A program made the translations under genes and the position numbers. Under the pieces are notes generated by a model that ran no database searches, was not told the origin of the DNA, and was given only the letters and a program-made list of their open reading frames with translations. From Mesorhizobium sp. B2-8-5 (GTDB taxonomy: Bacteria; Pseudomonadota; Alphaproteobacteria; Rhizobiales; Rhizobiaceae), in NCBI RefSeq assembly GCF_006440675.2, contig NZ_CP083951.1:4187501-4251500 (forward strand): a stretch of DNA of 64,000 nucleotides. The letters are read 5' to 3'. Positions 3,665 to 33,671 of the stretch are shown piece by piece (position 1 is the stretch's first letter; each line of letters starts with the position of its first letter).

Positions 3665-3707
3665 AGTGTTCTCTGTTGCCTAGGCCCTACTGCCTATTGC
3701 CTCATTT

Positions 3708-5765: not shown

Positions 5766-5795
5766 GCTAAGCCGGCATTTGGCAAATAGAGAACG

Positions 5796-7375: not shown

Positions 7376-7387
7376 GACTGGACCGAA

Positions 7388-7410: not shown

Positions 7411-7616
7411 AATGAAGCTTTTCGTATTTGTCAATTGGCCGGGATTTGGCTTTATTCTCCAATTGCTGGAACGAGCTCCAGCCAATACGCGCCTGGAACG
7501 GCCATCTCGGCGCCGACAATTAATCGCTACGCAGAGACTATCGCCATTGCGTCGCTGTCTTCGGTCGACCGATCGAGGCGGTTCCCTTGCGTGCAGCCAA
7601 TCAAAAAGGGGTAGAA

Positions 7617-8483: not shown

Positions 8484-8544
8484 GCTTAGCCGGGCGGGCG
8501 CACATGTGTGGCCGCCCATCTTGTCCATCGGAAAAATTAATAGC

Positions 8545-9711: not shown

Positions 9712-9982
9712 TTTGACCACGACGATCTTCTTCGACGGACGGCCATTGCGGTGCCGGCCAGGCGACAGCGTTGCCGCGGCATTGCTGGCTGCAGGCATTG
9801 AGCGGTTCCGCACGACGCCGGTCAGTGGAACCGATCGCATGCCCCATTGCATGATCGGCAATTGCTTCGACTGCCTGGTCGAGATCGATGGGCAGGCCGA
9901 CCAGCAGGCCTGCCTGGTGCCGGTTAGAGAAGGCTCCCAAGTGCGATCACAACTGGGCACGGGAAGGTTCGACGCAGCATGA
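9686..9982 (+). CDS. (2Fe-2S)-binding small subunit, HcnA-like
   Basis: A 98-residue protein with a plant-type [2Fe-2S] cluster motif: Cys-x4-Cys-x2-Cys in PHCMIGNCFDC and a fourth Cys in QQACLVPV. This is the small subunit of three-part flavoenzymes such as hydrogen cyanide synthase (HcnA) and the small protein encoded between octopine-oxidase subunits. It starts inside the preceding oxidase gene and overlaps the next by ATGA, so the subunits are translationally coupled. It would pass electrons from the flavin subunits. Confidence 0.85.
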   Translation: MFRRLRTDDLTTTIFFDGRPLRCRPGDSVAAALLAAGIERFRTTPVSGTDRMPHCMIGNCFDCLVEIDGQADQQACLVPVREGSQVRSQLGTGRFDAA

Positions 9983-11436: not shown

Positions 11437-11483
11437 GCGATGAGAAGCAGAAGCGACACAATGGGACGGATCGGGAAGCCGCA

Positions 11484-12671: not shown

Positions 12672-13383
12672 TTTCGGGCTGATGACCGTCTTCAGCTTTG
12701 CACCCGGGGGCTGGGGTGCCGCCATGGCGGCTGCAAGCGCAATGACGGTCGCGGTGGCAATGGCAGGCTTCATCGCCGGAGCTATAATAGGCACGTTCGG
12801 GGCGTGGGCGAAGACTTCCGGAGGAAGGATCGTCCGCTCGGTCGCCGATGGCTACACGACGGTTCTGCGCGGCATTCCCGACCTTCTGGTTATATATCTT
12901 TTCTACTTCGGCTCCAGCGCCGTCCTGACACCCATCGGCCGGTTCTTTGGAGCCAATGGCTTCCTCAGCCTGCCGGCTTTTTTCGCCGGCTGCCTGGCGA
13001 TTGCGATCGTGTCGGGCGCCTATCACACCGAAGTCTTCCGTGGGGCCTATCAGGTCGTAGCGCTTGGAGAGATCGATGCAGCCTACGCCACGGGCATGTC
13101 GCGAGCGCTCGCGTTCCGGCGCATCATCGCGCCGCTCACTCTGCGCTTCGCCTTGCCGGGCCTGGCAAACATCTGGCAGCTCGTTCTCAAGGAATCGTCG
13201 CTGATCTCGGTGACGGGGCTTGTCGAAATCCTGCGCCAGTCTCAGATCGGCGCGGGCTCGACCAAGCAGCCCTTCACCTTCTTTCTGGCGGCGGCGATCC
13301 TCTATCTGCTCATTTCCTCCGCCTCGGGATGGGTATTGCAGTTCGCCGAAAGGCACTTCACTCGCGGGCTCAGGAGGGGGTAA
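12664..13383 (+). CDS. ABC transporter permease (OccQ/HisQ type)
   Basis: A 239-residue inner-membrane permease of the polar amino acid family. It has several hydrophobic helices and the conserved EAA-like cytoplasmic loop ([32 protein letters not shown] shape, about residues 138-170). AGGAGG precedes the ATG by seven bases. It forms the transporter with the next two genes and the binding protein at the operon's start. Its stop shares a base with the next start (TAATG). Confidence 0.92.
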
Positions 13384-14105
13384 TGGACTTTTCCTTCTTT
13401 CTCAGTGCCTTTCTTCGACTGCTGCCCGGCGTCCCGTTGACCCTGCAACTGGCTTTCGTATCGGTGGGGCTCGGAATGGTCCTTGCCCTCATCCTGGCTT
13501 TGCTGCGTCTATCAGGCATCCGCCCGTTCGAGTGGATCGCGCGCGCCTATATCTTCCTGTTTCGCTCGACGCCGCTGTTGGTCCAGATCTTTCTGATCTA
13601 TTACGGCCTCAGTCAGTTCCCGACAGTTCGCTACAGTGTGCTATGGCCGATCCTGCGCCAGCCTTACTGGTGCGCCATCATCGCGCTTGCGCTGAACACG
13701 GCCGCCTATGGCAGCGAAATAATCCGAGGTGGCCTGCGTTCCGTGCCCGAAGGCCAGATAGAGGCCGCCCGTGCCTGTGGCATGAGCCGCATCACCGTGT
13801 TCCGGCGTATCGTGCTGCCCCTTGCCATCCGGCAGGCTCTTCCAGCCTACGGCAACGAAATCATCCTGATGGTGAAGGCGACGGCGCTGGCATCGGTGAT
13901 CACCATGATGGAAACCACTGGCCTTGCTGCGAAGCTGATTTCCGAGAGCTACCGCGCGGTCGAAGTCTTCGTCGTCGCGGGAAGCATCTATCTGATTATC
14001 AACTACGTCATAACGCGCGTCATCCATCTCTTGGAATACTGGCTGACGCCGCATCTGAGATCTGTATCGACACCGGTCGTCATCGAGAGAGAGGATGCAG
14101 CATGA
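13383..14105 (+). CDS. ABC transporter permease (OccM/HisM type)
   Basis: A 240-residue second permease subunit. It has hydrophobic helices, the [16 protein letters not shown] segment typical of HisM-type subunits, and the EAA loop [21 protein letters not shown]. The start overlaps the stop of the first permease by one base and the stop overlaps the ATPase start by ATGA. This coupling is usual for this transporter class. Confidence 0.92.
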
Positions 14106-14896
14106 GCCTGCCGCAACAACAGCACGAGCCGGCAGATGAGATAGTGCCAGCCGTCCGCATCCGCGATCTACGAAAAGCTTACGGGGCTTTCGAAGTGCTC
14201 AAAGGCGTTTCGCTCGACGCCAACGATGGGGATGTCGTCTCGATCCTTGGATCCTCGGGCTCCGGCAAGTCCACGATGTTGCGTTGCATCAACATGTTGG
14301 AAACTCCGACCGGAGGGGAAGTCTCGATAGGTGGCGAGACCATCCGGATGAAGCAGACGAAAGGCGGCCCGAAGCCCGCCGACCGGGCGCAGGTAGACCG
14401 CCTGCGCGCCCATGTCGGCATGGTCTTTCAGAGCTTTAATCTGTGGTCGCACAAGACGGTGCTGGAGAACGTGATCGAGGCCCCGCTCCACGTCCAGGGC
14501 CGTTCACGCGCTGAATGTGTCGAGGAGGCCAAGGAGCTGTTGGCGAAGGTCGGCATCGCCGACAAGATCAATCATTATCCGATCCATCTTTCGGGCGGTC
14601 AGCAGCAGCGTGCCGCCATCGCGCGAGCGCTCGGTCAACGCCCCCGCGTGATGCTGTTCGATGAACCGACCTCCGCCCTCGACCCCGAGCTTGTCGGCGA
14701 GGTGCTGAAAGTGATGCGGGCGCTGGCGGAAGAGGGGCGCACGATGCTGGTGGTCACGCACGAGATGGGCTTTGCCCGGGACGTGTCGAGCAAGGTCGTC
14801 TTTCTTCACAAGGGAGTTGTTGAAGAGGAGGGGCGACCCGACGAAGTTTTCAGCTCAAGTCGCTCTGAACGCCTTCGCCAGTTCTTGACGCGATAA
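14102..14896 (+). CDS. ABC transporter ATPase (polar amino acid/opine, OccP/HisP type)
   Basis: A 264-residue ATPase that energises the importer. Walker A is GSSGSGKST (about residue 50), the signature is [15 protein letters not shown], Walker B is [14 protein letters not shown] and the switch His is VVTHEMG. An insertion between Walker A and the Q-loop ([18 protein letters not shown]) is usual in histidine/opine-type ATPases. It is the last gene of the operon. No obvious terminator follows within 60 bases. Confidence 0.94.
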
Positions 14897-15290
14897 CAGC
14901 AAAGACGCTCGCGTTCAGTTAGGCGTCCGGTCAAACTGCTGGACAAATTTGATCATCGGAGCCATTCGCTCGCCATCGGGGGTTCGAGACGGGAGACCGC
15001 TATGTCGCGAAACCCACTATCGAAAAAGCATTCTTTTGCTATCGCAGACACGTCGAGCCTCGATATCGGCCCATGCCCTCTGAGGATCCTTACGCGTGAT
15101 ACCAACCGTTCAATGTGAATCGACCATCGGAAAAAGCCCGCGAAGGGCAGACGAATGGCAGGAACAGCGCCACCCAGAACGACTTCTGCGTTCTCGCGAA
15201 TTCAAACTGGGGCCTCTGTGCGGCCTACCATTGTTGACACGCCGGACGCCCATGCGCAGAAAAGTCCTGGGCATGGGAGGACATCTGCGC
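14897..15290. other. Intergenic stretch, no gene recognised
   Basis: No ribosome-binding site with a credible frame is visible. A TTGACA-like hexamer at about 15234 may be the -35 element for the GIY-YIG gene. An in-frame upstream extension of that gene from 15096 is open but has no domain character. Confidence 0.4.
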
Positions 15291-18109: not shown

Positions 18110-19276
18110 ATGTTTGGCTTGCGTATTGCTAAGGTTTGTCGGATCGTCGCAATCGTGGGACTCGTGGCAGTTAATCAAAGCCACGCATCCGAGATGTCCT
18201 GCACCAATATTCCGATATGCGACGTGGTTTTTTCTGCAAGTAAAAATCTGCTTGGTCAGAGCGTGACGTCTGGTTTCCCGGAGACCGTACTCTCGCGTGA
18301 GATAGTGTCGATAAAACCAGTTACCGTCCCGGACTTTCTACTCGATGACCCGCAATTCGTCTCACGGTTGAAAAATTTCGACAAGACCCTCGCGAAAAAG
18401 TCTGAAATCGACAACGCGTCGGGCGAAGACCTTTGGGCTGCTGTGGGTGCGTTCGCGAAGCGCGTTTTGCCGCGCCAGATAACTCCACAACCAGGAGATG
18501 GTGAAAGTGATTTCAAGGCGGCGAAAGCGCTGCTCGTGGACAGCGCAGGAAAGCCGACAAAACTTTATCTCGACTATAAAGCTTACGAGGACAAGCACAA
18601 GGAAGCGGCAGCTCGGCTTCTTGCCGAAAAAAACGAGTCTTCGCAAAGCTTAATACGCATTGAGATCGCGCAGATTGACAGAGATTGGGAGTTATTTGGC
18701 AATAAGGTACAGGTTGATGCTGCGCTCTCCGTAATAGAAAGTTTCAAAAGTCCTGAGGACGTTATTTCCGACTTTACTAATATTCTTGGTAGCAAACCCA
18801 TCTCCGTCGGCCAGTCTTTGAACGCTGCCGCTTCGGCAACCGATTGGATAAATTTCGGCATTTCTTCAAATGAGATTGCCGATATCGAGATTCAACTGCG
18901 AGGGGTGAAAACGACCTCAGCCGTATCGCCACGCAGTGTGACTTTTTCGGCCAGGATCGTTAGTCTGGACAGAGACCGCCTATACCAACCATTTCTTTTG
19001 CAAAAAGATTGGACGACCAACGATGGCACATTGCTGTCGGCTGGGGGCGAAGATGGAAAACCGGCCGCGGTCGGAATGTATGTGAGCGGGCTCGTGGTTG
19101 TGAAGAATGTCGAAATTTTTTCGGAAACCACAATTTCGAGTGGTTCCTACACAGAGATTGTCGGCTTAGGTGCAGGCGCCACGATGTCGGCCCAATCAAA
19201 TTACCTTATTTCTCCGAATTTACGAATCATTGGCGTAGTCATCGAGACGCTCAAACGGTTACCAAGCAACAATTAG
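18110..19276 (+). CDS. Exported protein of unknown function, cluster paralogue 1
   Basis: A 388-residue protein with a Sec signal peptide (RIVAIVGLVAV core, cleavage near SHAS). Not recognised as a known family. Its core shares short motifs in the same order with the next two genes: LDYKAYEDKHKEAA (residues 154-167), DRDWELFGNKVQVDAALS (190-207), a V-x-F-x-A-R-I segment followed by YQPFLL (versus RPWLD/RPWFD in the others), and near the C-terminus VVVKNVEIFSE and LRIIGVVIETLKRLP. Two Cys soon after the signal peptide (SCTNIPIC) could form a disulfide. GAGGG lies seven bases before the ATG. First gene of a three-gene run with gaps of 17 bp and 1 bp. Confidence 0.7.
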   Translation: MFGLRIAKVCRIVAIVGLVAVNQSHASEMSCTNIPICDVVFSASKNLLGQSVTSGFPETVLSREIVSIKPVTVPDFLLDDPQFVSRLKNFDKTLAKKSEIDNASGEDLWAAVGAFAKRVLPRQITPQPGDGESDFKAAKALLVDSAGKPTKLYLDYKAYEDKHKEAAARLLAEKNESSQSLIRIEIAQIDRDWELFGNKVQVDAALSVIESFKSPEDVISDFTNILGSKPISVGQSLNAAASATDWINFGISSNEIADIEIQLRGVKTTSAVSPRSVTFSARIVSLDRDRLYQPFLLQKDWTTNDGTLLSAGGEDGKPAAVGMYVSGLVVVKNVEIFSETTISSGSYTEIVGLGAGATMSAQSNYLISPNLRIIGVVIETLKRLPSNN

Positions 19277-19293
19277 AGCTGCGAGGCGAGGGA

Positions 19294-20697
19294 ATGCGAT
19301 TTTCGTGTGTAAGTGCGGGACGCCTCGCGTCTCTGTCTTTGGCGGTGCTTGCGACTTCATTAAGCGCAGCACAGGCGATTGACTCGATAACGCCGGAGCA
19401 GGCGCAGGCGATGCTTACCGACAGCATTAGACGACTGATTGCACCTGAGCTACCAAAAGAGAGTTGGATAAGCTTGACGCTTGTGGGCGGTGTGGCCTCG
19501 CCCAACGACGCATCAACAATTCATCAGTGGGCAAATTCATGCCCAGAACCATCGCCGTTTATCGCGTCTCTCGTGCCGCGACGCCCGCTGTCCGGAATTT
19601 ACCGGAAAATGATAAGTAGCGCGGTCGGGCCGATCAGAGAGGATACCGAGGAGATACTGGCCGCCAAGGCAATAGTTAATAGTGATCGTTACAAAGCGTT
19701 TGTTGAGAAGGAGAAGAATTACAATATTGCATATGCGAAGCTTGTAAGCAGATCAAATGATGACAATAAGGTGCAATTACTTACCGATCTAGATCTCGCC
19801 GACCGAGAGTGGCTGCTGTTCGGAAACAAGGCGGAGGTCAGCGCGGCAGTAGCATTGCTGCAAGCAAACCTACAACTTCAAGCAATCAATGCCCAGCGAG
19901 TGAGCGTGCTTAACGCCTTTTTAGCGGAAGGAACATCTGCCAAAAAGTATGTATCTGGCTCATTTGTGGCGCCCCCAAGCGAAATTGGCCCGCCTGTCAG
20001 CGAGTGGGGGCTCCCTGACGGATGGGTCAACCTCTCTTATTCCAGTCAGTCCACTTCCGAAGAGGTAGTGACGAAGACGACGGCTAGGCGCGGTGGAGGG
20101 GGTGTAAGCCTTGGCTTCGTCACGTTCGGCGGCAGCGGCGGCGGCTCAAATACGGAAGTCACGCGCGTATCTAAAGTCCGCAAGCTGTCGTATTCGTTTG
20201 CCATAAAACGCGTCGGAATTAGGAGACCTTGGCTAGATACAGAAGTATTTTTTGAGCCGCGCAATTGGGCCTGGACTAAAAAACCGAATACTCCGGTTCG
20301 ACCGTATGTCGCTGTTGGGCTTAATGGTGATGATTTGCCTCAGGCTAGTCCGACCCCAGAATACGATAACGTCACTGTCGCATGTAGCCTGCTTCCGTCC
20401 GATTTTATAATCGCGAAAGATATTGTTATTGAGGCAACCGTCTCGGAGGACGACTTTAAACAGTTCGAGGAAGGGTCCAACGCCAGTGGCGGCGCGGTAC
20501 TATTCGGGATTATAGGTGGTGCGGGGGGAGGCAGTTCATCCTTCTCCGATGTAAAAAAGGAGGGGGATGCGGTGTCCTTCAAAATAAGCAGCACCGGCAC
20601 GTCAGTTATTGGACTGATATCATATGTCCTTCCGAAGCTTCCCGACCCCAACAAACTTGATAAGTGGCCCGCTAGCGCCTGGATCGAGGATAAATGA
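19294..20697 (+). CDS. Exported protein of unknown function, cluster paralogue 2
   Basis: A 467-residue protein with a clear signal peptide (LASLSLAVLATSLSAAQA). It shares with its neighbours YKAFVEKEKNYN, DREWLLFGNKAEVSAAVALL (170-189), SFAIKRVGIRRPWLDTEVFF (301-320), DFIIAKDIVIEATV and a final SVIGLISYVLPKLP. Specific to this copy are two glycine-rich segments flanked by Ser/Thr: residues about 265-285 (GGGGVSLGFVTFGGSGGG) and a later GGAVLFGIIGGAGGGSSS. These are alternating or hydrophobic glycine stretches of the kind that can enter membranes. Start taken at the ATG with GAGGCGAGGG upstream. Function unknown. Confidence 0.7.
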   Translation: MRFSCVSAGRLASLSLAVLATSLSAAQAIDSITPEQAQAMLTDSIRRLIAPELPKESWISLTLVGGVASPNDASTIHQWANSCPEPSPFIASLVPRRPLSGIYRKMISSAVGPIREDTEEILAAKAIVNSDRYKAFVEKEKNYNIAYAKLVSRSNDDNKVQLLTDLDLADREWLLFGNKAEVSAAVALLQANLQLQAINAQRVSVLNAFLAEGTSAKKYVSGSFVAPPSEIGPPVSEWGLPDGWVNLSYSSQSTSEEVVTKTTARRGGGGVSLGFVTFGGSGGGSNTEVTRVSKVRKLSYSFAIKRVGIRRPWLDTEVFFEPRNWAWTKKPNTPVRPYVAVGLNGDDLPQASPTPEYDNVTVACSLLPSDFIIAKDIVIEATVSEDDFKQFEEGSNASGGAVLFGIIGGAGGGSSSFSDVKKEGDAVSFKISSTGTSVIGLISYVLPKLPDPNKLDKWPASAWIEDK

Positions 20698-20698
20698 G

Positions 20699-21922
20699 AT
20701 GCGCACTATTGCAGTTCTCATTCTCTCTTTCCTTGTGTACCTCAGAGTGTGCCCTGACGCGAGCGCGGACCCATTTAAGGATGAGCTCATACACAAGCTT
20801 GCCCATGAAATACTTGGATCTGATTCGTTCTTTCGGAAGGTGGGCGACGGTGGATGGCGAGGAATAGCACTTGCTCCGGCGGGAGCGTCGATTGAGCCCC
20901 TAGTGCAGGCCTATTCGGGGCAGCCGGGGGACGTATTTGATCTAGTGGTCAACAACGAGGTGTTTGGGCGCACTATCTCGATAGAGAATGGAGTCGTATT
21001 CTTTAAGGGCACAACGATTGCTGACGCGTGGCGGCGGATCTTAGATGCTAGCGCGCCGTACCAGGCCTTGCTTAAGGATCGAACCCTTCCGGTTCCTGTC
21101 ATGCAGTGGTTGTTTCGACCCGTTACAAGACAGGCAAAAATCATCTACACGCGGGAACCCTCGCGCTACGTCCTAAGATACCGCGAATATGAGAAGAAGC
21201 ATCTTGCTCTGATGCGGTCGCGGAACGACGGCATTTGGAAACTTCTGCCCGGTTTTAGTCAGTATGCCACTTTTTCGGACGCCGAAAGTGCGATTTCAGA
21301 AGAATGGATTAAATCGGGTTACAAGGCGGAGGTCGAATCTGCATACTCCGTTTTCCTGCAGAAAGGAAATCCTGCCGAGTGGAACAGCTGGTTTATCGCG
21401 AATGAGCGGTTTAAAAACAATATGGAGGTAATCCATATTAATCAGAGTTCGCCTCTAACATACTTGCTGCCTCCGCCGGCCTCTTGGTCAACGGTCTCAA
21501 GCTGGGTTCGCATGGTCCTTAAGGTACCTAGTCTTTCAGGGGAGTTTCGGTTCCAGCTAGCTAGGGTCAAGATATTGCGTCCTTGGTTCGATGTTGACGC
21601 GTTGCTGGATCATCGGATCGGGTTGAACGTAGGTCCGGCAGATGTAGTGGTCAGCACGGACATACCCGAGGAAGCTGGATATGCTGGCAACGGGATTCTG
21701 CCAGGATTTGTTGAGGAGCTGTTACTTGTGAGAGATATCCACTTTGTGGGAGACCAAGAACAGGTGCCGACAGACCACCCCCTTGCTAAATACGCGTATC
21801 CAGACAGCATAAATCTGCTGGGGTATGTTGTGTACACCATGCCTCAGATTAGGTCTGATGCAATAAAGGCTCCTGACGACGGTTCGGTCTTGGCTTCACC
21901 CTCAGCTAAGGAAGCCCCGTAG
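20699..21922 (+). CDS. Exported protein of unknown function, cluster paralogue 3
   Basis: A 407-residue protein with a short signal peptide (IAVLILSFLVYLRV, cleavage near DASA). It begins one base after the previous stop, so translation is probably coupled. Shared cluster motifs are YVLRYREYEKKHLAL (157-171), ISEEWIKSGYKAEVESAYSVF (199-219), FRFQLARVKILRPWFDVDALL, ELLLVRDIHFVG and NLLGYVVYTMPQI. It lacks the long glycine-rich segments of paralogue 2. Function unknown. Confidence 0.68.
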   Translation: MRTIAVLILSFLVYLRVCPDASADPFKDELIHKLAHEILGSDSFFRKVGDGGWRGIALAPAGASIEPLVQAYSGQPGDVFDLVVNNEVFGRTISIENGVVFFKGTTIADAWRRILDASAPYQALLKDRTLPVPVMQWLFRPVTRQAKIIYTREPSRYVLRYREYEKKHLALMRSRNDGIWKLLPGFSQYATFSDAESAISEEWIKSGYKAEVESAYSVFLQKGNPAEWNSWFIANERFKNNMEVIHINQSSPLTYLLPPPASWSTVSSWVRMVLKVPSLSGEFRFQLARVKILRPWFDVDALLDHRIGLNVGPADVVVSTDIPEEAGYAGNGILPGFVEELLLVRDIHFVGDQEQVPTDHPLAKYAYPDSINLLGYVVYTMPQIRSDAIKAPDDGSVLASPSAKEAP

Positions 21923-22224
21923 AGGCAATCTATACGCCTCCATGATCGGATCTGGTAGCGGCGTCCTCAGGCTCTACAGTTTTGATCTATGGTTGGCCGC
22001 GCGGGCGAGGCGTTGCTACTGCGAACTCTTTAAGAACGTCGAGTGTTGGTTCAAGTTCATCGGAGTTGCAGACCGTTGGCTTTCCGCATTCGTTCATTGA
22101 GGAGAACTCCCCAATATTCGACGCCCGCGTAAGAATCATAGTGGTGTCGACGGATGTTTAAGGAACAGCGGGGAGTAATCTCCCTGCGCCAGCATTGGTT
22201 GTGGATAGAGGAGGCCGAACCGCC
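21923..22224. other. Intergenic stretch inside the exported-protein cluster
   Basis: About 300 bp with no credible frame and no recognisable element. AGGAGG at about 22207 serves the next gene. Confidence 0.4.
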
Positions 22225-22755
22225 ATGATGATCTATAGTGGTTGGCAGTTGTGCTTGATATTGGCTTGTTTATCGATCTCGGACATTGCTAGGGCAGAGA
22301 CGGTGTCGTTGACCATCGAGACGCGGATTAAGGAAAAGACCTTGTCCTTTGAAGCGGGTATCAAGTCAACGCAAACGGTCGTGGTCGACTTCTCCATGGG
22401 GTCCGTGTCCAGTAGCTTCACGACCGGCGTGACGAGTATCGGGGTAAGTGAGTTGAAGAGCATTCGCGACGCGTTTTCGGTCGATAATGTGGCAATCAGT
22501 AAAACTGCTGCAGGTTTCGACGCGGTCGGTCAGACCGCGTCTGGGGTCGGTTTTATGCCGAACATCGACTACAAATTCGCTATCACGGTCGATGTCAGCT
22601 CACGTGAGGTTGTCTTTAGTGGTTGTCATGACGGCTACCCGAGCTATAAGATTTTCGTAAACGGCAATGTCGTTTATGACTTTGATCAGGAACTCCTCGT
22701 CGCTTTGTTCGGATCGTGCGACACGAAGGTGCAACCGACGACAGTGAAGTTCTGA
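22225..22755 (+). CDS. Small exported protein of unknown function
   Basis: A 176-residue protein starting MMIYSGWQLCLILACLSISDIARA, a signal peptide. The mature part looks all-beta. A distinctive C-terminal stretch reads FSGCHDGYPSYKIFVNG, then VVYDFDQE and LFGSCD; the two Cys could pair. The G-x-HDGYPSY-type motif occurs in bacterial and fungal secreted proteins as I recall, but I cannot name a family. AGGAGG precedes the start by about ten bases. It sits between the A-B-C paralogues and a recombinase fragment. Confidence 0.65.
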   Translation: MMIYSGWQLCLILACLSISDIARAETVSLTIETRIKEKTLSFEAGIKSTQTVVVDFSMGSVSSSFTTGVTSIGVSELKSIRDAFSVDNVAISKTAAGFDAVGQTASGVGFMPNIDYKFAITVDVSSREVVFSGCHDGYPSYKIFVNGNVVYDFDQELLVALFGSCDTKVQPTTVKF

Positions 22756-22799
22756 TGTTGCGGCGGCAAATCGTATTTTAAGTGTCCCGCATGAATGTA

Positions 22800-23438
22800 A
22801 TTAAGTGCGTGGTGAAGAACCCCGATACTGGCAAACGCGTCTCCAGGCCAAATCCGAAGGACCAGTGGCAGACGAAAGAAGTTCCGCATTTGCGCATTAT
22901 CGATGAAGAAGTTTGGCAGAAGGCACAGGCACTCAAAGTCGCGAGGGTGAATGCATGCTCTCATTTCAAGCGCCGCCCGGCACACCTGTTATCCGGTCTG
23001 CTTCGTTGTGGCATCTGCGGGGCGGGCATGTCGGTTCACGATCGTGATAAGACGGGCAAAACGCGTATCAGGTGCTCCGCAGTGCGTGAAAGCGGGAGCT
23101 GTTCCAACCGGCGCATTATTTACCTACCCGAGATCGAGAAGGCCGTCCTCGATGGCATGCGCCAGCAGTTGAAAGCGCCCGACCTGATCGAGGCATACAT
23201 CCGCAAATACAACCAAGAGCGCCGAGAATTGGCAGCACAGGCGAACTCGTTGCGTACAGCGCTGGAAGGCAAGCGCGATCGGGTAGAAGGCGAACGTCAG
23301 CGGACGATCGACCTCGTGATTAGGAGCGTGATCGCTGAAGAGGATGCCAAGCAGCGGATCGCAGAACTCAAGGCACAGCTTTCTCTGATCGAGGCACAAC
23401 TCTGCAGTCTCGATGAGCCATTTTCTCATCGGGCTTGA
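22800..23438 (+). pseudogene. Large serine recombinase, C-terminal fragment
   Basis: Recognisable from KNPDTGKRVSRPNPKDQW, EVPHLRIIDEEVWQKAQ (recombinase domain end), the zinc ribbon GLLRCGICGAGMS with a second pair in IRCSA...GSCSN, and a final coiled coil. The catalytic resolvase domain with its Ser and about 250 N-terminal residues are absent, so it cannot recombine DNA. The open frame can start at 22782, but homology to recombinases begins near 22800. It marks an old insertion or deletion inside the exported-protein cluster. Confidence 0.8.
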
Positions 23439-23558
23439 AGTGAACAATCTCCATCACCGATGATTGGTGGAATTCACATTAGCTCACGCTAAATAAACAC
23501 TTTGCCTTCGACCGCGATCTGACGCATCCTGTCCCTTGATAGAAGAGGGAGGATACCG

Positions 23559-25568
23559 ATGATAAGACTAGCTTCCACTCTCCCCGCAGCCCTGGCGTGC
23601 TTGATTGCTTCTCCGTCTCTGGCTCAGGATAAAGCGGTCGGGTCCTCGAAAGCCGTTGAGCGGATAGTCTATCCGTATCCAGCCGCCGGTGTTCAAATTG
23701 GCCAAGGCTGGGACAGTTTTGGCGAGCGGGGTACGGCCTCTTTTTGTGTTAGCGTGGATGAGGCCAAGCTTGAACACAGTAGCTTTGAGTCAAGCGTCGA
23801 ACAGATTCAGAGCACATTTTCGTTCGTGAAGAAAACAACTTCCTCAGTCAGTGCTGCTTACAACGGCGGCGGCGGTTTTGGTGGATCCGCTAGTGCCTCC
23901 TCAAGTAAGGAGATAAGGATAAACTCAGACGATCAAAATTTTCTGTTTACGTTTGTCTCGTCGTCCGGAAGTACTTTTGCTGTTCCATCAGGAACATATG
24001 ACAGACACATATCCGTTGAAGATTTGGAATTTTCTAAATCTATCGATTCTGCCACGGCCGAAGAACGACTGGTGTCTAGACTTGACTCCCTTCCGCTCCA
24101 GGTCAAAGGCGGATCCTTCACCTTTTCCGATCAGGCTCAAGCGCTTCTGAACGAAATGAGTGGCGACGATGTGGGAAAGAAGCGTGTTGCAAGTGAACGG
24201 TTTAGGCAACTGTGTGGCGACGGTTTTGTGGCGGCTATCCACCGTGGCGCGCGATTGCATTTGCTCTTGACCCAGAAGGTGAGGTCTAGATCACAAAAAG
24301 AGAGCCTCACAGCGGCGGTAAGCGCCTCTGGGTACGGGGCCTCTGGTGGAGGTTCATTTTCGAGCAGTACTAAAAAATTGGAAGCAACTGATAAGCTAAG
24401 CTATACCATTTTACAGGAGGGCGGCGTTCCCGAGCAGGTAAGGGCGACGATCGGCCCCCCAACTGCTGGTAAAGTTTTCGATATCAACGACATCATACCA
24501 CCTCCGGAAAACTTGCTACTAAATCCTACCGCTTTTAGCGTAGACATCCTCCCGTATAGTGCAATCGTTGGCCCCGCGATTGACCAGTCGCTCGTGGCGT
24601 CTCCGAATGATTTGTTTCTGGTCGGCGACTATTACATTGTCCTACGGGACCTGTTCGATCTAGCCGGCGAGGCGGTTGAAATTGCGGCGTCTTCGGATAC
24701 CTACATCAATAATTCTGTTTACGCCAAGGACATGCTCGGAATCTACGGTGGGGCGAACGAATTTTCACGTCTCCATGACCAGATTCAGAGCGACATGATG
24801 TTCCTGGAGAGGTTGATTGAGCAATGTTACAGAGAAAGAACGGGCTGCAAGTTAGAGACAGCATTGCAAGGGGTCGAGAGCGATTTAAAGGAAGAAGCAA
24901 TCGAATCTAAGACCTTAGATAGCGGAGTGGACGCTGCGATAAAAATATTGTCAACCGCTAGGATTGAGGACAATTTGAAAGATGCAACCAGTGGCAAAGA
25001 GATTCGCAATACGCAGGTTAGTGATGCGTTAAATGAAGCTATCCAGCGCAAACCTGAGGCGACCGTTGGTGACGCGCTCGCTTATCTGAAGGACGTTTCT
25101 GAGACACTCAGGAGATATAGAGCTCGAACCTCGGAGTATAGTTCATTTATAGACGACAAAGGAGAGCTATCGAGCCAATTCTATCTTCGGTTTTATCACT
25201 ATGCGGCGAACTTGCCGCTTCCGAAGGATTCCTACGACGACTACAAGGCGACGATAGGAAAATTGGTGTTTCCGTTCGTTAAGCCTGAGAATAAGGCCCA
25301 GCAGGAAAAAGTTAAGAATGATTTCAAGGCTGCCGCCGATGCGGCGACTGATGACCTTCGCAAAGCGATTTTGCGCGAGCGGCTTTTGCCATGGAAAGAG
25401 TTCTTCTGCAAAGAACTAAAAAGTGCTCCGCTTTGTGTGCCCGATGCCGTTCTTCTGAGTATCGCGACCCCTGTGGTAAACACTGACGATTTTACAATCA
25501 AGCCGCGAGCCCGGACGTTGCCGATAGGCAAGTTCGACCTCCGTTTGGACCGGTTTATGATCCGATGA
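23559..25568 (+). CDS. Large exported protein with MACPF-like layout, function unknown
   Basis: A 669-residue protein with a signal peptide (TLPAALACLIASPSLAQ) and a strong AGGGAGG site. Residues 52-65 (DSFGERGTASFCVS) lead into a Ser/Thr-rich stretch that becomes glycine-rich (77-115, ending GGGGFGGSASASSS) and then NFLFTFVSSSG. At 219-233 is CGDGFVAAIHRGARL, followed by a second alternating Ser/Gly segment (250-270). This order, first amphipathic segment, a YGTHYI-like position, then a second segment, resembles membrane-attack/perforin or related pore formers. The canonical Y-G-T-H-Y is not present, so this is inference. The C-terminal 300 residues are helical and unrecognised. It overlaps the next gene by ATGA. 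Confidence 0.65.
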   Translation: MIRLASTLPAALACLIASPSLAQDKAVGSSKAVERIVYPYPAAGVQIGQGWDSFGERGTASFCVSVDEAKLEHSSFESSVEQIQSTFSFVKKTTSSVSAAYNGGGGFGGSASASSSKEIRINSDDQNFLFTFVSSSGSTFAVPSGTYDRHISVEDLEFSKSIDSATAEERLVSRLDSLPLQVKGGSFTFSDQAQALLNEMSGDDVGKKRVASERFRQLCGDGFVAAIHRGARLHLLLTQKVRSRSQKESLTAAVSASGYGASGGGSFSSSTKKLEATDKLSYTILQEGGVPEQVRATIGPPTAGKVFDINDIIPPPENLLLNPTAFSVDILPYSAIVGPAIDQSLVASPNDLFLVGDYYIVLRDLFDLAGEAVEIAASSDTYINNSVYAKDMLGIYGGANEFSRLHDQIQSDMMFLERLIEQCYRERTGCKLETALQGVESDLKEEAIESKTLDSGVDAAIKILSTARIEDNLKDATSGKEIRNTQVSDALNEAIQRKPEATVGDALAYLKDVSETLRRYRARTSEYSSFIDDKGELSSQFYLRFYHYAANLPLPKDSYDDYKATIGKLVFPFVKPENKAQQEKVKNDFKAAADAATDDLRKAILRERLLPWKEFFCKELKSAPLCVPDAVLLSIATPVVNTDDFTIKPRARTLPIGKFDLRLDRFMIR

Positions 25569-26353
25569 AACCTCGCTTCAACGCTCTCGCGTTTGACATA
25601 AGAAGGGTTGCCATCCGTAGTGTTCTCGCCGTATGCCTGACTATTGCGTGGTTCGATCGCACCTTGGCAGCGAACAGCATGGATCTGGTGGCGGCCCCTG
25701 CCGTGGAGGCCTTGAAGGCTAAATCTGATGAGGCCCTTGAGCACTTGCCAACCCCTGCGCTGGAGCCTAGTGGGCTGCCCGAGTATGCGCGAACACCTTA
25801 TCTATGTTCGACTAATCGGATCATCAAGCTATTCGTGCCGCGGGAGAAATGGTCTGCAAAGGTGAACATAGTCAGAGATGTTTCCTTTGGATTTGCGTCG
25901 GTCAATCAAACGTTGCCATTTGTTGAGTGGGTAGAGATCGATAAGACCCAACGGGATTACGCAAGGAACGCGTTAAAGGCTTTGCTTGAAGACGTTGTCG
26001 AGCATCAGACACTTCTTTCCAGACTTTCACTAGGCGCGGGGGCGACGGCCGCTGCTGGTGCCCAATTCAGAATGAAGGAGGTTGCCTTAGGTGCGGGGAT
26101 CTTTGGGCTGTTTGTGACATGGATGCGATCCGACGAGGGGGCCACCGCGTTTTTCGCAGAAGTGAGATCGAATGCACCTAAGATTATCAACGGATTAGGG
26201 GAGGGTACTCGCGTCTATAGAGTGCTGATTGACCTGAGCGCAGGCGGGAAGCGGACCTTTTTGCGAGACTCTCGCGTTCTTGTGAATCCAGACGGGACTG
26301 CACTTGAACTTGAAAGATGCCTCTACATACTAAAGCGGGGGCGACTTCCGTAA
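25565..26353 (+). CDS. Exported or membrane-anchored protein of unknown function
   Basis: A 262-residue protein translated from an ATGA overlap with the large MACPF-like gene, so the two are almost certainly a functional pair. Its N-terminus has a basic region and a hydrophobic stretch (SVLAVCLTIAWF, cleavage near TLAA). A glycine/alanine-rich hydrophobic stretch lies around residues 155-180 (LGAGATAAAGA, LGAGIFGLFVTWM) and may insert in a membrane. The C-terminal part is beta-like (RVYRVLIDLS, ALELERCLYIL). No family recognised. Confidence 0.62.
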   Translation: MKPRFNALAFDIRRVAIRSVLAVCLTIAWFDRTLAANSMDLVAAPAVEALKAKSDEALEHLPTPALEPSGLPEYARTPYLCSTNRIIKLFVPREKWSAKVNIVRDVSFGFASVNQTLPFVEWVEIDKTQRDYARNALKALLEDVVEHQTLLSRLSLGAGATAAAGAQFRMKEVALGAGIFGLFVTWMRSDEGATAFFAEVRSNAPKIINGLGEGTRVYRVLIDLSAGGKRTFLRDSRVLVNPDGTALELERCLYILKRGRLP

Positions 26354-26675
26354 GCCGTCTGCTGCGTAGATTGTTGAGCCATGCTTCGCCCCTGCATTTG
26401 GCGCACTCGCCTGGAGCCCGGTTTCATGCGAATCCTCGATTGCGTGCTTGGGGTGGGCTGGATCCGTGAGGTCATTAGATCGCTCAAGCGGCTGATTTCC
26501 ACCGAAAACATTGCCCGTCAGGACGGAAGCATGGTTCGCCATCACTCGCGATATCATCAGGCGCAGAGCGGCGCTCGCGTCTAATCATTGTCTTACCAAG
26601 GAAGCGACTTTCTAAGCGGGTGTTTTTACTATAACATTAGCGACATCTGAAATTATAAACGGAGGGGCTGCGGCC
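26354..26675. other. Intergenic stretch with a GC-rich island, no gene recognised
   Basis: A roughly 200-bp GC-richer block (about 26380-26585) sits inside AT-rich surroundings, open on both strands but without a ribosome-binding site or known motif. It may be a relic of an inserted element. The next gene has its own GGAGGGG site. Confidence 0.35.
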
Positions 26676-27503
26676 ATGCCTCGGCAATGGATAATTGTTG
26701 CGCCACTACAAATTGCACTGATTGCTCTTGTCTATGGACTTGCACCCCCACCTGCCTTCGCAAAATGCGGTATTGTCGAGCCATGCCAGCTCAAGCCCCT
26801 TAAAAAACAGCTAGATAAGGCGGGAAAACAGTTAGATAAGGCTGGTCAAGCCGCAGCGAAGGCTGCAAGCAAAGCAAAGCGCGACGCTGCGATTGCGGCG
26901 AGCAAAGCAAAGCGCGACGCTGCGATTGCGGCGAGCAAAGCAAAGCGCGACGCAGCGATTGCGGCGAGCAAAGCAAAAAAAGACGCTGCGATTGCAGCTA
27001 AGAAAGCAGCGCAAGACGCTGCGAATGCTACCAAGACTGCCGTCCAAGCTGTGGCCGATGCGCTTAACGAGCTTCAAGCAAACGTTTTAACCGGCCCCGC
27101 GCTGGAGCATGCCATTCGGGCTTCGCGCAACTCTGCCATTAAGGGTTCAATGCCAATTCCTCCAGAAATTCAGAAGCGACTGAAAGGATACTCAACCAAG
27201 GATTCCATGAAAGTGGTCCGCTACAAGATAAAGGACAAAGGTTTCGTCAATCTTGCACGGCTGCTTGAACAAGGTGGGTTCGCAGACGCCGTCACATTAA
27301 TTGATGTTGTCGTCTTTCGGGGTCCCGGCGAAGCGGCCGATCCGTCTATTTGGGCTCATGAACTAAAGCATGTCGAGCAGTATCAAGCTTGGGGAGTACG
27401 CAGATTCGCAATACGATATGCTCGAAACTCAGGTAGCGTAGAAAATCCGGCCTATGCAAAAGGAAACGGTTTTCTGGCTTGGCAAAGGTCGAAGGGTCAA
27501 TAG
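26676..27503 (+). CDS. Exported HExxH (zincin-like, DUF4157-like) protein with repeat linker
   Basis: A 275-residue protein with a signal peptide (LQIALIALVYGLAPPPAFA). After KLQ/DKAGKQLDKAG-type heptads comes a fourfold perfect-to-near-perfect 11-residue repeat of type SKAKRDAAIAA (residues 65-108), predicted as a long charged helix. The C-terminal part has WAHELKHVEQYQAWGV (His228, Glu229, His232), a zinc-protease HExxH motif in the context used by DUF4157-type domains. It ends about 40 residues after the motif. It would be a periplasmic or secreted putative metalloprotease or an inactive relative. Last gene of the exported cluster. Confidence 0.68.
   Translation: MPRQWIIVAPLQIALIALVYGLAPPPAFAKCGIVEPCQLKPLKKQLDKAGKQLDKAGQAAAKAASKAKRDAAIAASKAKRDAAIAASKAKRDAAIAASKAKKDAAIAAKKAAQDAANATKTAVQAVADALNELQANVLTGPALEHAIRASRNSAIKGSMPIPPEIQKRLKGYSTKDSMKVVRYKIKDKGFVNLARLLEQGGFADAVTLIDVVVFRGPGEAADPSIWAHELKHVEQYQAWGVRRFAIRYARNSGSVENPAYAKGNGFLAWQRSKGQ
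26868..26999 (+). repeat. Four tandem 33-bp repeats inside the HExxH gene
   Basis: Units at 26868, 26901, 26934 and 26967. The first two are identical, the third differs by one base and the fourth is more diverged. Each encodes SKAKRDAAIAA or a close variant, so changes in copy number keep the frame. Confidence 0.95.
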
Positions 27504-27730: not shown

Positions 27731-28603
27731 TTGACCGGGATCAAAGGAGTGCCGCAACTGATTGAACCGGTTGGCCAAGCGCGCAACGACTACGACATCT
27801 TCAGTGACCTTGCCGGCCACCTTGGCTTCCAGGAGCAGTTCACGGAGGGCCGCGATATTCGTGGGTGGATCGAGCATGCTTACGACGGATGTCGCGCGAA
27901 GGCTCGGGTGCACAATGTAGAGTTGCCTGAGTTCTCAAGATTCTGGAGGGAGGGCTTCATCGAGGTGCCGTCGCCGGAGGACGACTTCATTCTGTTCGGC
28001 GATTTCCGTGCCGACCCCGTGGCCAACCCACTTCGAACGCCATCAGGGCGCATAGAAATCTTCAGTGAGACTATTGCGGGCTTCGGCTATGACAATTGCC
28101 CTGGCCATCCGGTCTGGTTGCCGCCGAAGGAATGGCACTCGGCAAAAGCCGCCGAGCGGTTTCCGCTTCACCTAATCTCAAATCAGCCTTCGACGCGACT
28201 TCATAGCCAGCTGGACGACGCAAAGCTGAGCCGCGGTTCGAAAGTGGCCGGGCGTGAGCCTATTCTGATCAACAGCATCGATGCTGCTTCCCGACTGATC
28301 GAAAATGGCGACACCGTGCGGGTCTTTAATGACCGTGGCGCATGTCTGGCTGGCGCAGTGCTTTCGAGCGACGTCATGGAGGGTGTTGTGCAACTGGCGT
28401 CAGGCGCCTGGTACCACCCTGAAGCGTACGCGGCACCGGGCTCGCTTGATCTTCATGGAAATCCAAACATGCTCACGCGCGACGAAGGAACGTCATTCCT
28501 CGGACAGGGGCCTGCTCAGTCTGCTCTCGTAGAGGTCGAGAGATTCCTTGGTGAAAGACAGGCAGGCGATTTCCAGATGCCCCAGGTTAAGGCAGGTTTT
28601 TAA
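27731..28603 (+). pseudogene. Molybdopterin S/N-oxide reductase (BisC-like), C-terminal remnant
   Basis: The last 290 or so residues of a BisC/TorA-type molybdoenzyme: LRTPSGRIEIFSETIAGFGYDNCPGHPVW, HLISNQPSTRLHSQLD, then the MGD-binding end with VVQLASGAWYHP and GSLDLHGNPNMLTRDEGTSFLGQGP. Normal proteins are about 750 residues. The molybdenum-ligand region and all upstream domains are missing, and no start codon with a ribosome-binding site precedes the homologous part. The open frame itself is intact, so the truncation is probably recent. Confidence 0.82.
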
Positions 28604-29615: not shown

Positions 29616-30935
29616 TTGCACTCAGAGACAAAAGCAAAACTTCTCGCGTCAATGCACGCGGGACGACTAGTGATTGTTTGTGGCGCTGGCCTTTCTATGG
29701 CAGCGCCCAGCAACCTTCCCGCTGCATGGCGTGTCGCTGAGGCAAGCTTCGACAAGTACGTGCTCGAAACGGACCCTGCTTGCGATCCGGCGATGCGCCA
29801 CGACCTTGAAGCTTTTGCGCAGTACTTCGTCGACCTTCACGCACTGCAGTCTGTATTCATCGAAAGTCTCGTGCCGTGGCAAATGTTTGTGAAACCGCCC
29901 AACTCGGGCCATGCTGCAGTAGCCGATTTCCTTGTCACGCGAGCGGCCACAGCAGCCCTGTCCGGCAACTACGACACGTTGATTGAGCAGTCCGCGGTTG
30001 CGAACGGCTTTGACTTTCAAAACTCGTTGGATGGAGACGAGGCGACCACTCGGTCCCGCACTCAGGGTCCGTTGTTGAAATTTCATGGATGCGCGACGCG
30101 TGACCGGCTGGCGACCGTGTGGGCACCGTCGCAGTTGGCTGATCCGCCCATCGCCCAGCGCATTGCAAAGAGCAAAACGTGGATGGCTGCAAACCTCCGG
30201 CAGAAGGACCTGCTGGTCGTCGGTTTCTGGTCCGACTGGGACTATTTGAACACCCTCTTGGGAACTGTCCTCGACGGACTTGCTCCACTCTCCGTCACGG
30301 TAATCGACTTAGCGGATGCAGCTGCTCTTCAAGCTAAAGCTCCTGATCTATGGGCCCTAGCCCACGGCCCGCAGGTGGAGTTCACGCATGTGCAGCAATC
30401 AGGGGCAGACGCGCTGTCTGAGCTTCGACAGGCGTTTTCCCGGAACTACCTTCGCGGGGTACTTGCAGCTGGTAAGTCGGCATTTGAGGCGTCGACCGGA
30501 GCGGCCTGCGATCCGGTTTGGCTGGAGCCACCGGACTTCGAGAACGAGACGCTTTACAATTGGCGGCGCGACGCCGAAGGCGTACCTGCGGGGCAGCCAG
30601 CTAACAGGTCGAAGCCGAGCCAATGCGAGATCTGCGGGGTGTTCCATTTGCTGCTTAGGCAAGCCGGAGCGACCCCAACTGCTCTCGGCTACGAGCTGGC
30701 GGGCCGATCTATCAGGGTCGTAAATGGCGCCGGTGCGGTTCTCAACCAGCTTCGATCCAAATATGTTGAAGCGCCTGTAGTTGCCTCGACCGATATTGTC
30801 GTGGCAGCCGGCGCAACTAACCTACCTGTACCAGGAAGCATCGTTCGGCCCGGGGCCGCCGGTAGCTTCATCCGCCCAGCGGGGATGGGGGCCTGGTACG
30901 ACCTTGACGGGGCGCGGACGGAGTTGGGTATCTGA
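29616..30935 (+). CDS. SIR2-domain protein, putative defence effector (Lamassu-Sir2/ABC-3C type)
   Basis: A 439-residue protein with an N-terminal SIR2 fold: VCGAGLSMAAP (Gly23-Ala-Gly), GNYDTLIE (Asn118, Asp120), FHGCATRD (His157) and VVGFWSDWDY. In phage-defence systems such domains hydrolyse NAD+ on activation. The second half is unrecognised, with a Cys-x2-Cys (CEICGVFH, about residue 335). The best start is a TTG at 29616, which keeps the helix before the first beta strand; an ATG at 29652 would cut it. The stop overlaps the next start by one base, and an SMC-like gene follows: the gene order of Lamassu-Sir2. Confidence 0.82.
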   Translation: MHSETKAKLLASMHAGRLVIVCGAGLSMAAPSNLPAAWRVAEASFDKYVLETDPACDPAMRHDLEAFAQYFVDLHALQSVFIESLVPWQMFVKPPNSGHAAVADFLVTRAATAALSGNYDTLIEQSAVANGFDFQNSLDGDEATTRSRTQGPLLKFHGCATRDRLATVWAPSQLADPPIAQRIAKSKTWMAANLRQKDLLVVGFWSDWDYLNTLLGTVLDGLAPLSVTVIDLADAAALQAKAPDLWALAHGPQVEFTHVQQSGADALSELRQAFSRNYLRGVLAAGKSAFEASTGAACDPVWLEPPDFENETLYNWRRDAEGVPAGQPANRSKPSQCEICGVFHLLLRQAGATPTALGYELAGRSIRVVNGAGAVLNQLRSKYVEAPVVASTDIVVAAGATNLPVPGSIVRPGAAGSFIRPAGMGAWYDLDGARTELGI

Positions 30936-31465
30936 TGGACATTGGCACGCAGTCCGAGATCATACTTCGCGAGGTTGGTTACGAGACCTGGCCATGGACC
31001 GGAACGTCGCCGCCGGTCATTTGCTTTGAAAGTGCTACCGTTATCGGTTTTGTACACGTCTTTGGCACTGCCAGAGAGCTACTAGACACCTGGGAGGCGG
31101 CCCAGCAACGGGTACTGGCACGACACGCGCCTGCGCTTCGGGCGGCCGGCACCAAGGCTTGGAATGTTTACTCAGTCTTCCTGACCTCCGAATTTGCGCA
31201 ATCCCTTCAGCGGCAAGTCGAGAAGTTGGAAGAGAATTTTGCACTCACCCGGAAAATTGCACGCACTGCGATCCAAACGACCGAAGACCTGACGAACGTT
31301 CTGATGCCTTTAGGTCCGATCAAGGCCCGGCCCCTTCTCGAACACACTGACATCGCCGATAGACTGCGGGTTCGCGCAAAGGACATTCCGGTCGAAGCGT
31401 TGACTGCCTTCTTGGCCAACCAGCGGCCAGAGGACGTTGCCGAGATATTGGGGAGCCCAGCATGA
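30935..31465 (+). CDS. Middle component of the SIR2-SMC system (LmuC-like position)
   Basis: A 176-residue protein with no recognised domain, coupled to both neighbours (one-base overlap upstream, ATGA downstream). Its second half is helical (FAQSLQRQVEKLEENFALTRKIARTAI). Size and position match the small middle component of ABC-three-component or Lamassu systems, which bridges effector and SMC ATPase. The assignment rests on context only. Confidence 0.65.
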   Translation: MDIGTQSEIILREVGYETWPWTGTSPPVICFESATVIGFVHVFGTARELLDTWEAAQQRVLARHAPALRAAGTKAWNVYSVFLTSEFAQSLQRQVEKLEENFALTRKIARTAIQTTEDLTNVLMPLGPIKARPLLEHTDIADRLRVRAKDIPVEALTAFLANQRPEDVAEILGSPA

Positions 31466-33522
31466 GGCTTGACTACGTTGAAGTTTGCGGTTTTCGCGGT
31501 TTTCGCGAGAAGGTCCGTGTCGACTTCGGCCTGGGCTTCACCGTCATCACTGGGCGCAACGGGGTAGGGAAAAGCACACTTTGCGACGCAGTCGAATTCG
31601 CCATTCTCGGCGAAATCGCCAAATACGGAATAGAGACGGCCGCAAAAGAGACCGTTCGCGACTATATTTGGTGGCGGGGTGATGGCTCGCCGAGCAACCA
31701 CTACGTGACCGTGGCCTTCGTCGATTGCGACGGCAAACAGTTCTCCATCACTCGAACACGCGACGGTGGCGCCGACAAGACGCCGGTCGAGATCGAAGCC
31801 CAACTATGCCAGGGCGCCATACCGGAAGAACCGCTCAAACAGCTCTGCAAAACCTCGGTTATCAGGGATGAGTGGATCGCAAGCCTCAGTCTCGATCTAA
31901 GTGAAACGCAACGGTTCGACCTGGTTCGCGCCGCTCTTGGGTCAGTCGAAGGTGCAGGCCTCGCGGCGAAAGCGAAGGCTGTGGTTACGATCACGGAGGC
32001 GGCATGCGATCGCGCTGAAGCATCTTACGAACAAGCCCGGACAGTGCTGCAAGGCGGGCTCGTGCAACTGTCGGAGGCAAACGACGCCGCGAAACGGAGC
32101 AGCGATATCTCCGCGGCGATGGCAGTGCTCGATCGGGTCATTCCGTCGACGCAAGGAGAACTTGCGCAGAGGATAGACCTCGCGCAACGTACTCTGCCTG
32201 ATCGGCGGCGGCGGCTCGAAGGTCTCGGCCTTGCCGCGTTTGAAGGGCATGAAGTCGCAGCGCTCCAGAGCGCGTTCAATTCACCAGAAGAGCTGGTGCG
32301 CAGGGAGCGCGCAAAGGCGGCACTGGAAACCGCACAGTCAAACTTTGATCGCCTGCAGTCTGAGGTGGATGTGGCGCGGCGCGCCTATGACCTTGAGGCG
32401 ACGGCAAACGAAATCGCCGGTTCGTTGTCCATCCTCGTCGAACACGGAGAGGCGCTGGGACTTCATAACGAGCGTTGTCCGCTCTGTGCGGCAATGAGAA
32501 CAAACGAGGAATTTGATGCAGGCATCCGAAGCGCCCGGGCGCGGATCGACCAGCTTGCCGCACGCGTGAATTTGGCGCGGGACAATCTCGCGAAGATCCG
32601 CGAGGCAGCCGGCCAGGCTGAAGATCAACTTGCCGAGGCGGAACTAGGCTGGGACGTCTATGAGCAAAAGCTGGGGACCCTTCGCGCACGGGAAGCGGCT
32701 CATATCGAAATCTTCGAACGCTATGGGTTGAATACAGTCAACGCTGCAAACCCGAGCGCGCTTGACCAGGAGGTGCTGGAGGAGAGCGAGCAATTGGTCG
32801 AGCTCGAGCGCTCGCTTAACGCTTTGTCGACCTCGCGGTCCGTCGATACATTGACATCTGTTGACGCTCGAGTGTCCCTTCTTCGGCGACAAGCCGACGC
32901 TGCCGCGGACGAACTTTCACGAGCTCAGAGCGCGGTGGCATCAGCCAAATCGCTGGAAAAGAGCGTTCGGCGATCGGCGGCAGAAATCGTGGACGAACGG
33001 CTTGCCAGCATCAGCCCGCTGCTGAATGAGATCTACCAGCGGCTGCGCCCACACGCGAACTGGCGCAGCATCGACTACAGCATCCGGGGAGACGTCCGAC
33101 GCTTCCTCAGTCTTAAGGTGGGCGACGATCTCAATCCCCAATTCGTTTTCAGCAGCGGGCAGAGGCGAGCGGCGGGTCTCGCTTTCCTTTTGTCAGTCCA
33201 CTTGGCGAGGCCGTGGTCCCGTTGGGAAACACTTATGTTGGACGATCCGGTTCAACACATCGACGATTTCAGGGCTCTGCAACTCGTCGAAGTTCTCTCT
33301 TCGCTCCGACAACGTGGTCGCCAAATTGTCGTGGCAGTCGAGGATGAAGCGCTCGCCGATTTGCTGTGCCGACGGATGCTCAGCACGCCTGAGCAAGTTG
33401 GGCGTCGGTACGCGATTGACTTTAACGAGCGCGGGGCGGCTGATGTGATTGGGCGGCTCGAAATTCCGCCGATGGCCACAGGGATCCTTCGTCAATTTGA
33501 CGGTGTCCAGGCAACTGCTTGA
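31462..33522 (+). CDS. SMC/Rad50-like ATPase with zinc hook (LmuB-like)
   Basis: A 686-residue SMC-type ATPase. Walker A is TGRNGVGKSTLCDAVEF (about residues 29-45). Long coiled-coil arms meet at a Rad50-type zinc-hook half-site ERCPLCAAM (about residue 338, the midpoint). The C-terminal head has the signature FSSGQRRAAGLAFLLS and Walker B LMLDDPVQHIDD. It is shorter than chromosomal SMC, as expected for Lamassu/ABC-3C sensors that bind DNA ends or structures and trigger the effector. It overlaps the middle-component gene by four bases. The cognate effector is the SIR2 protein. Confidence 0.88.
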   Translation: MRLDYVEVCGFRGFREKVRVDFGLGFTVITGRNGVGKSTLCDAVEFAILGEIAKYGIETAAKETVRDYIWWRGDGSPSNHYVTVAFVDCDGKQFSITRTRDGGADKTPVEIEAQLCQGAIPEEPLKQLCKTSVIRDEWIASLSLDLSETQRFDLVRAALGSVEGAGLAAKAKAVVTITEAACDRAEASYEQARTVLQGGLVQLSEANDAAKRSSDISAAMAVLDRVIPSTQGELAQRIDLAQRTLPDRRRRLEGLGLAAFEGHEVAALQSAFNSPEELVRRERAKAALETAQSNFDRLQSEVDVARRAYDLEATANEIAGSLSILVEHGEALGLHNERCPLCAAMRTNEEFDAGIRSARARIDQLAARVNLARDNLAKIREAAGQAEDQLAEAELGWDVYEQKLGTLRAREAAHIEIFERYGLNTVNAANPSALDQEVLEESEQLVELERSLNALSTSRSVDTLTSVDARVSLLRRQADAAADELSRAQSAVASAKSLEKSVRRSAAEIVDERLASISPLLNEIYQRLRPHANWRSIDYSIRGDVRRFLSLKVGDDLNPQFVFSSGQRRAAGLAFLLSVHLARPWSRWETLMLDDPVQHIDDFRALQLVEVLSSLRQRGRQIVVAVEDEALADLLCRRMLSTPEQVGRRYAIDFNERGAADVIGRLEIPPMATGILRQFDGVQATA

Positions 33523-33671
33523 TCTGATCCTTGGCAAAGATGCCGGTACAGTTGCATCGGTAGGGCTTGGTTCTTGCCGTTGAACTATGTTCCGGCCCTA
33601 GCGGATATCGCTGAGCCGGGCGATCCGCCGGCGTTCAAGACGCGCCTGAGGCATATCGGCAGGGAGGTGGC

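Follow-up and report, generated by a model that had tools for sequence, protein, structure and literature searches.

Seven genes for predicted exported proteins beside dusA in Mesorhizobium sp. B2-8-5 probably form a patchwork of separate modules

Analysis of a 64,000-nt stretch of the Mesorhizobium sp. B2-8-5 genome (NZ_CP083951.1, 4,187,501-4,251,500), hereafter the window, within which all positions are counted, revealed that seven same-strand open reading frames (ORFs A to G; 18110-27503) for predicted exported proteins are cargo of a genomic island of about 52 kb adjoining dusA. The seven ORFs fall into at least three and probably four modules, namely A-B-C, D, E, possibly together with F, and G, and we hold it to be highly probable that these modules are independent of each other. 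A-B-C is a rare, conserved and hitherto unannotated operon of three paralogs, and E is predicted to adopt the MACPF/CDC fold known from pore-forming proteins.

The evidence for separate modules lies in their distribution. Among 146 genomes of the genus, matches to E were obtained from the window's own genome and four others (G686, G217, G155 and G685), matches to B from its own and three others (G723, G755 and G271), matches to G from its own and two (G718 and G811), and matches to D from its own and one (G765). These lists overlap solely in the window's own genome, and no second genome holds two modules. The single D relative in the 145 other genomes is 62% identical, and none of the other six (A, B, C, E, F, G) adjoins it, while the G copy in G718, 94% identical, is not accompanied by any of A to F. 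A scan of GTDB genomes for B, using one strict 10-residue pattern, yielded five loci, none of which contained relatives of D, E, F or G (ORFs of at least 80 residues, E 0.01). Protein-database searches were run for E, B and F; among about 5.8 billion proteins, F found only its own genome's copy at the sensitivity of that search, and no contig was common to the E and B matches among the longest contigs of matched clusters, a weak comparison that took one longest contig per cluster and scored the best-sharing approximately 8000 candidates. The first-pass annotation of this DNA had treated the seven genes as a single system, a view which these distributions led us to reject.

A and B are recognizably similar (blastp E 5e-8), C more weakly so, and in a joint tree the rows of each protein form one clade, with support of 96/91 for five A rows, 99/99 for eight B rows and 100/99 for four C rows, though the tree is arbitrarily rooted and includes some very long A branches. 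Thus, the triplication predates the spread of the operon. The order A-B-C recurs in three of the five GTDB loci (Methylocystis sp. Sn-Cys, M. erdmanii and Neptunomonas japonica), so that the suggested search for at least three of the seven genes together elsewhere came out positive for this block, in other genera and in unchanged order. The B match of G723 has the coordinates of the one in the M. erdmanii USDA 3471 contig. The fourth locus, from a Methylocystis metagenome-assembled genome, carries A-B on a contig ending inside B, the fifth, from Hyalangium, holds three B-like genes without signals, and C relatives adjoin B in loci L010, L011 and L012. More distant B-like genes, one per genome, were seen in G271, G394, G374, G408 and G755; the B-like protein of G271, likewise exported by prediction, stands at the front of a closely spaced set (L029:7860-12323) with three more signal-bearing proteins, perhaps another arrangement of the A-B-C kind.

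The paralogs differ in their loops. Two Gly/Ser-rich loops of 51 and 37-38 residues are present in B (about residues 250-300 and 383-420; all four rows), versus 24-28 and 16-21 residues in A (all five rows) and 8-9 and 6 residues in C (all four rows). A and C were rejected as glycine-rich proteins on these lengths, and the earlier description of three related glycine-rich proteins was right about their kinship but not their composition, as the long Gly-rich segments lie in B and E, not in A or C. Since only B has long hairpins, the contrast between the paralogs predicts that B, rather than A or C, enters membranes, and we tentatively propose B as a possible membrane-inserting subunit. Profile searches with A gave no family above cut-off. 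For B, five database relatives were found; in the B alignment one cysteine is kept in 9 of 11 rows and another in 7 of 11, both being absent in P0027 and in the protein from Hyalangium, neither of which shows a signal (P0027 by eye). A B profile run against the sequences of solved structures gave five matches (best E 0.53), plasmids gave none and a scan of viral contigs gave none that was confirmed. Matches to Trypco2 (PF19631) in four B relatives (E 0.1-0.85) and to SAM_HAT_C in one were below threshold and left unused, as was the Trypco2 family context in the accessible text of PMC7159879 and PMC10907252.

Two further readings of A-B-C were considered. Instead of being a weapon, the operon could act at the envelope as an anti-phage or conflict module, as one more of the island's sets of defence genes; the island does hold Lamassu-like, Shedu, NACHT and TIR genes, and the neighbours of A-B-C elsewhere, of which ten proteins were picked out of many for annotation, include TIR (L012), caspase-domain (L013) and OLD/UvrD-type (L010) genes. 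However, such neighbours may mirror common island hotspots, PADLOC models were matched by none of the seven proteins A to G (E<=0.1), and exported proteins are unusual in anti-phage systems, which leaves this reading unlikely. Less likely still, we regard as speculative a new class of secreted three-component membrane-attack machine built from paralogs of ancient duplication, in which B would contribute two insertion hairpins and A and C reduced ones, which would have been transferred en bloc between alpha- and gammaproteobacteria, and whose division of labour would resemble that of the complement membrane attack complex.

E contains Ser/Gly-rich segments at about residues 85-123 and 251-279 and a helical C-terminal domain at about 345-635. 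Its 20 database relatives, close ones being GFM44_23305 of R. leguminosarum and NKH09_15890 of Mesorhizobium sp. M1339, give a family alignment of 21 rows including E, in which both Ser/Gly-rich segments are conserved. Five cysteines are present in every row and a sixth in 19, the remaining two rows being incomplete there; a C-terminal cysteine pair found in 17 of the 21 rows is missing in E itself, and a lipobox occurs in four rows, none of them E. The AlphaFold model of E (mean predicted local distance difference test score, pLDDT, 70.9; predicted template modelling score, pTM, 0.62) gave pleurotolysin B as its top Foldseek match in the PDB (E 3e-6), and the nine best matches are MACPF-type pore-formers, bar one titled 'Aegerolysin-L pore'. 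Together, model and matches bear out the earlier impression of a MACPF-like large protein. No curated family was matched by E. The MACPF signature has Tyr/Phe-Gly near its start and Gly-Gly at its end; the E family keeps G220, G230 and an aromatic residue at 223, and E itself has Cys 219 and Ala 231.

Whether E forms pores is a separate question, and we give about even chances to its being a pore-former used in antagonism. The alternative, a MACPF-fold protein without pore-forming activity that serves as an adhesin or in development or symbiosis, finds some encouragement in the appearance of astrotactin-2, which is of the MACPF type and acts in neuronal development, in the Foldseek list and in the lipoprotein-like N-termini of four of the 21 family members. 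We nevertheless consider it improbable, given that the two Ser/Gly-rich segments are retained family-wide and that the Gram-negative MACPF/CDC proteins described in the accessible text of PMC11169675 and PMC12853789 are antibacterial toxins.

An E profile gave nothing at E 10 against the sequences of solved structures, a scan of genome contigs produced 163 pattern matches of which none was confirmed, and neither a scan of viral contigs (none confirmed) nor a phage search returned a relative. A plasmid search gave one distant match (22.9% identity) from a Polaromonas sp. JS666 plasmid (L053:4974-6887), which is conjugative and carries VRR-NUC and DUF4297 genes nearby. Distant E-like proteins in genomes of the genus and family (L007:6984-8888, L008:8890-10557, L009:7658-9466, L048:6741-8384 and L049:7398-8876), one of which matches the GON domain (24 bits, cut-off 22.6), represent a wider MACPF-like pool in the family. 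No relatives of A to D or F were seen beside these genes in the stretches read, and a weak G match near the L048 gene (E 3.5e-4) is probably due to composition. F, which showed no similarity to E (blastp, E 10) and no match among plasmids, may be an immunity or partner protein of E.

Features of the window discussed in the text
Feature	Position	Strand	Description
A	18110-19276	+	388 aa, exported (predicted), first paralog
B	19294-20697	+	467 aa, exported (predicted), second paralog
C	20699-21922	+	407 aa, exported (predicted), third paralog
D	22225-22755	+	176 aa, exported (predicted), separate passenger
E	23559-25568	+	669 aa, exported (predicted), predicted MACPF/CDC fold
F	25565-26353	+	262 aa orphan, exported (predicted), overlaps E
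G	26676-27503	+	exported (predicted) HExxH protein, lysine/alanine-rich repeat, eCIS_core (DUF4157-type) domain
Recombinase remnant	22782-23438	+	C-terminal part of large serine recombinase (zinc ribbon, coil)
Molybdoenzyme remnant	27731-28603	+	C-terminal part, bisC/torA-type; PF01568 match
Putative left attachment site	6005-6044	+	degenerate copy of dusA 5' end
Integrase	56942-58003	-	tyrosine-type; PF00589 80.2 bits (cut-off 27.1)
dusA	58119-59117		integrase abuts its 5' end

Taken together, we slightly favour the reading that A to G are exported-protein modules which were acquired independently and now form a patchwork beside dusA, and in which A-B-C and E-F would act as follows. A, B and C would be Sec-exported and probably assemble into one three-subunit complex, in which the hairpin loops of B would enter the membrane and A and C would serve as binding or assembly subunits. 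E would likewise be Sec-exported, probably with disulphide bonds, and its C-terminal helical domain would bind the target, presumably the membrane of a competing or grazing organism, where E would oligomerise into a ring and its two Ser/Gly-rich segments would unfold into a beta-barrel pore. D and G would be unrelated single-gene passengers.

Several observations weigh against this mechanism. The superposition of the E model on its nine best Foldseek matches is poor (template modelling, TM, scores of 0.15-0.22 by query, root-mean-square deviations of 9-23 A), the VIA-align Z values of E are equalled by unrelated helical chains aligning on the C-terminal helices, the two segments proposed to insert are those modelled least well (pLDDT <50), and the Pfam MACPF profile PF01823 was matched by none of the 21 E-family rows. 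For B, the AlphaFold model is poor (pLDDT 58.7), Foldseek gave no match at E<=0.001, the VIA-align rows fall on the helical core and an hhalign comparison with the E family was not significant; the argument for membrane insertion by B is its loop make-up. Owing to the low TM-scores we lowered our estimate for the MACPF fold of E, which we still regard as very probable, and the poor model, the lack of a significant fold match and the failed comparison with E led us to claim no known family for B. The earlier proposal of a secreted pore-forming, predation or competition cluster thus holds in part, in that E is probably a pore-former, but A-B-C is a separate new family, and the role of the cluster is one that we infer.

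The layout of the stretch agrees with the earlier account of seven same-strand ORFs coupled tightly in two blocks: order and coordinates could be confirmed; A and B are 17 bp apart, B and C 1 bp, and the E and F reading frames overlap by 4 bp. Sec-type N-termini were recognizable by eye in all seven proteins, as previously stated, but a crude signal rule passes six of them, failing D for its lack of an early Lys/Arg, and also accepts 11 of the 36 other genes of the window, in some cases plainly in error (e.g. CTP synthase); one member of that comparison set (13384-14105) was translated out of frame. Conserved cysteines are the stronger support for what we take to be export. The GC content of 18110-27503 (51.8%) does lie below that of the flanks (61.8% for 1-5990 and 65.6% for 58119-64000), but 52001-57900 of the same island is equally GC-poor (52.2%), and low GC is therefore not peculiar to the seven genes.

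The recombinase fragment and truncated molybdoenzyme noted earlier are indeed both remnants. The former matches PF13408 (57.1 bits) and positions 65-98 of the 102 of PF07508, i.e. the zinc ribbon plus the last part of the Recombinase domain, with no catalytic N-terminal resolvase domain found by profile search, and was consequently rejected as an active recombinase element. The latter retains the C-terminal ~280 residues of the reductase (TIGR00509 positions 482-759 of 772; 355 bits, cut-off 1017). In G, the reported HExxH motif was found, together with a match to the Pfam eCIS_core family (PF13699; 27.3 bits, cut-off 22), the sole one in its own genome at E 1. It is highly improbable that A to G are island debris in decay and without function: the ORFs do have two gene remnants in their midst and F lacks a relative, yet all seven frames are open end to end, B and E align over their full length with distant relatives, and G retains its catalytic HExxH. 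Least probable of all is one seven-gene secreted attack system with A-B-C and E-F as subunits and G as activating protease, for which speak the common strand, the export signals in all proteins, the contiguous GC-poor stretch and the proteolytic activation known for CDC-like (CDCL) toxins, but against which stand the separate distributions given above as well as the recombinase remnant between D and E and the reductase remnant after G.

The island setting supports the earlier suggestion of horizontal arrival through the integrase beside dusA, a putative displaced attachment copy and a patchy distribution. At the putative left attachment site, 22 of 30 positions agree with the dusA start, the runner-up site in 1-58000 having 18-19. 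Window positions 1-5765 are collinear with the relative G155 at 95-97%, in which dusA follows after a further 7.2 kb. Among 41 genomes of the genus, several contain extra short copies of the first bases of dusA, as expected for an integration hotspot. The transporter/oxidase part of the island (6240-15002) shares 96% DNA identity with G696, while the dusA genes are 81% identical. Two segments, 54613-55095 and 55805-56077, recur beside the G copy in G718 (67-74% DNA identity), and the first is present in G696 as well (76%); they represent shared island backbone. Further cargo includes a Lamassu-like trio within 29616-34505 (LmuB-type ATPase, E 1e-29, with weak LmuC-like and SIR2-like neighbours) followed, in the same interval, by a Shedu SduA gene (E 2.8e-85), and two likely defence genes, one for a NACHT ATPase that includes an Mrr-type nuclease domain (41293-43740) and one for a TIR protein that also has a DUF3298 domain (53344-54579).

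Comparison with known systems places the island near dusA-integrating genomic islands, which, according to the accessible text of PMC4482086, carry an integrase next to the dusA 5' end and variable cargo; the window shares both traits, but its displaced dusA copy is degenerate (22/30). No description of the A-B-C and E families was found in the open-access literature. E resembles the MACPF/CDC superfamily (pleurotolysin B, perforin, MPEG-1, GNIP1Aa) in its predicted core (~42-360) and its best PDB matches, has two Ser/Gly-rich segments, modelled with low confidence, between core strands, and differs in the missing PF01823 match, the C-terminal helical domain and the low superposition scores. 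Bacteroidales secreted antimicrobial proteins (BSAPs) are, as described in the accessible portion of PMC12853789, lipoproteins with a PF01823 domain and a receptor-binding C-terminal domain. E, from a Gram-negative bacterium as well, is comparable in being MACPF-type by its predicted fold, in its predicted export and in a C-terminal domain that could bind, but it lacks both lipobox and PF01823 match, the former being seen in four of the 21 family rows. The CDCL toxins of Bacteroidota, for which the accessible portion of PMC11169675 describes two CDC-like components, an immunity lipoprotein and activation by proteolysis, are matched by E-F in the two-gene arrangement with a MACPF/CDC-fold protein, but F has no similarity to E. 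As E fails the defining tests of both BSAPs and CDCLs, it may act like either without belonging to them. E would point to a MACPF/CDC-fold clade of rhizobia and metagenomes that profile annotation has overlooked, and which could be a weapon of plant-associated soil bacteria.

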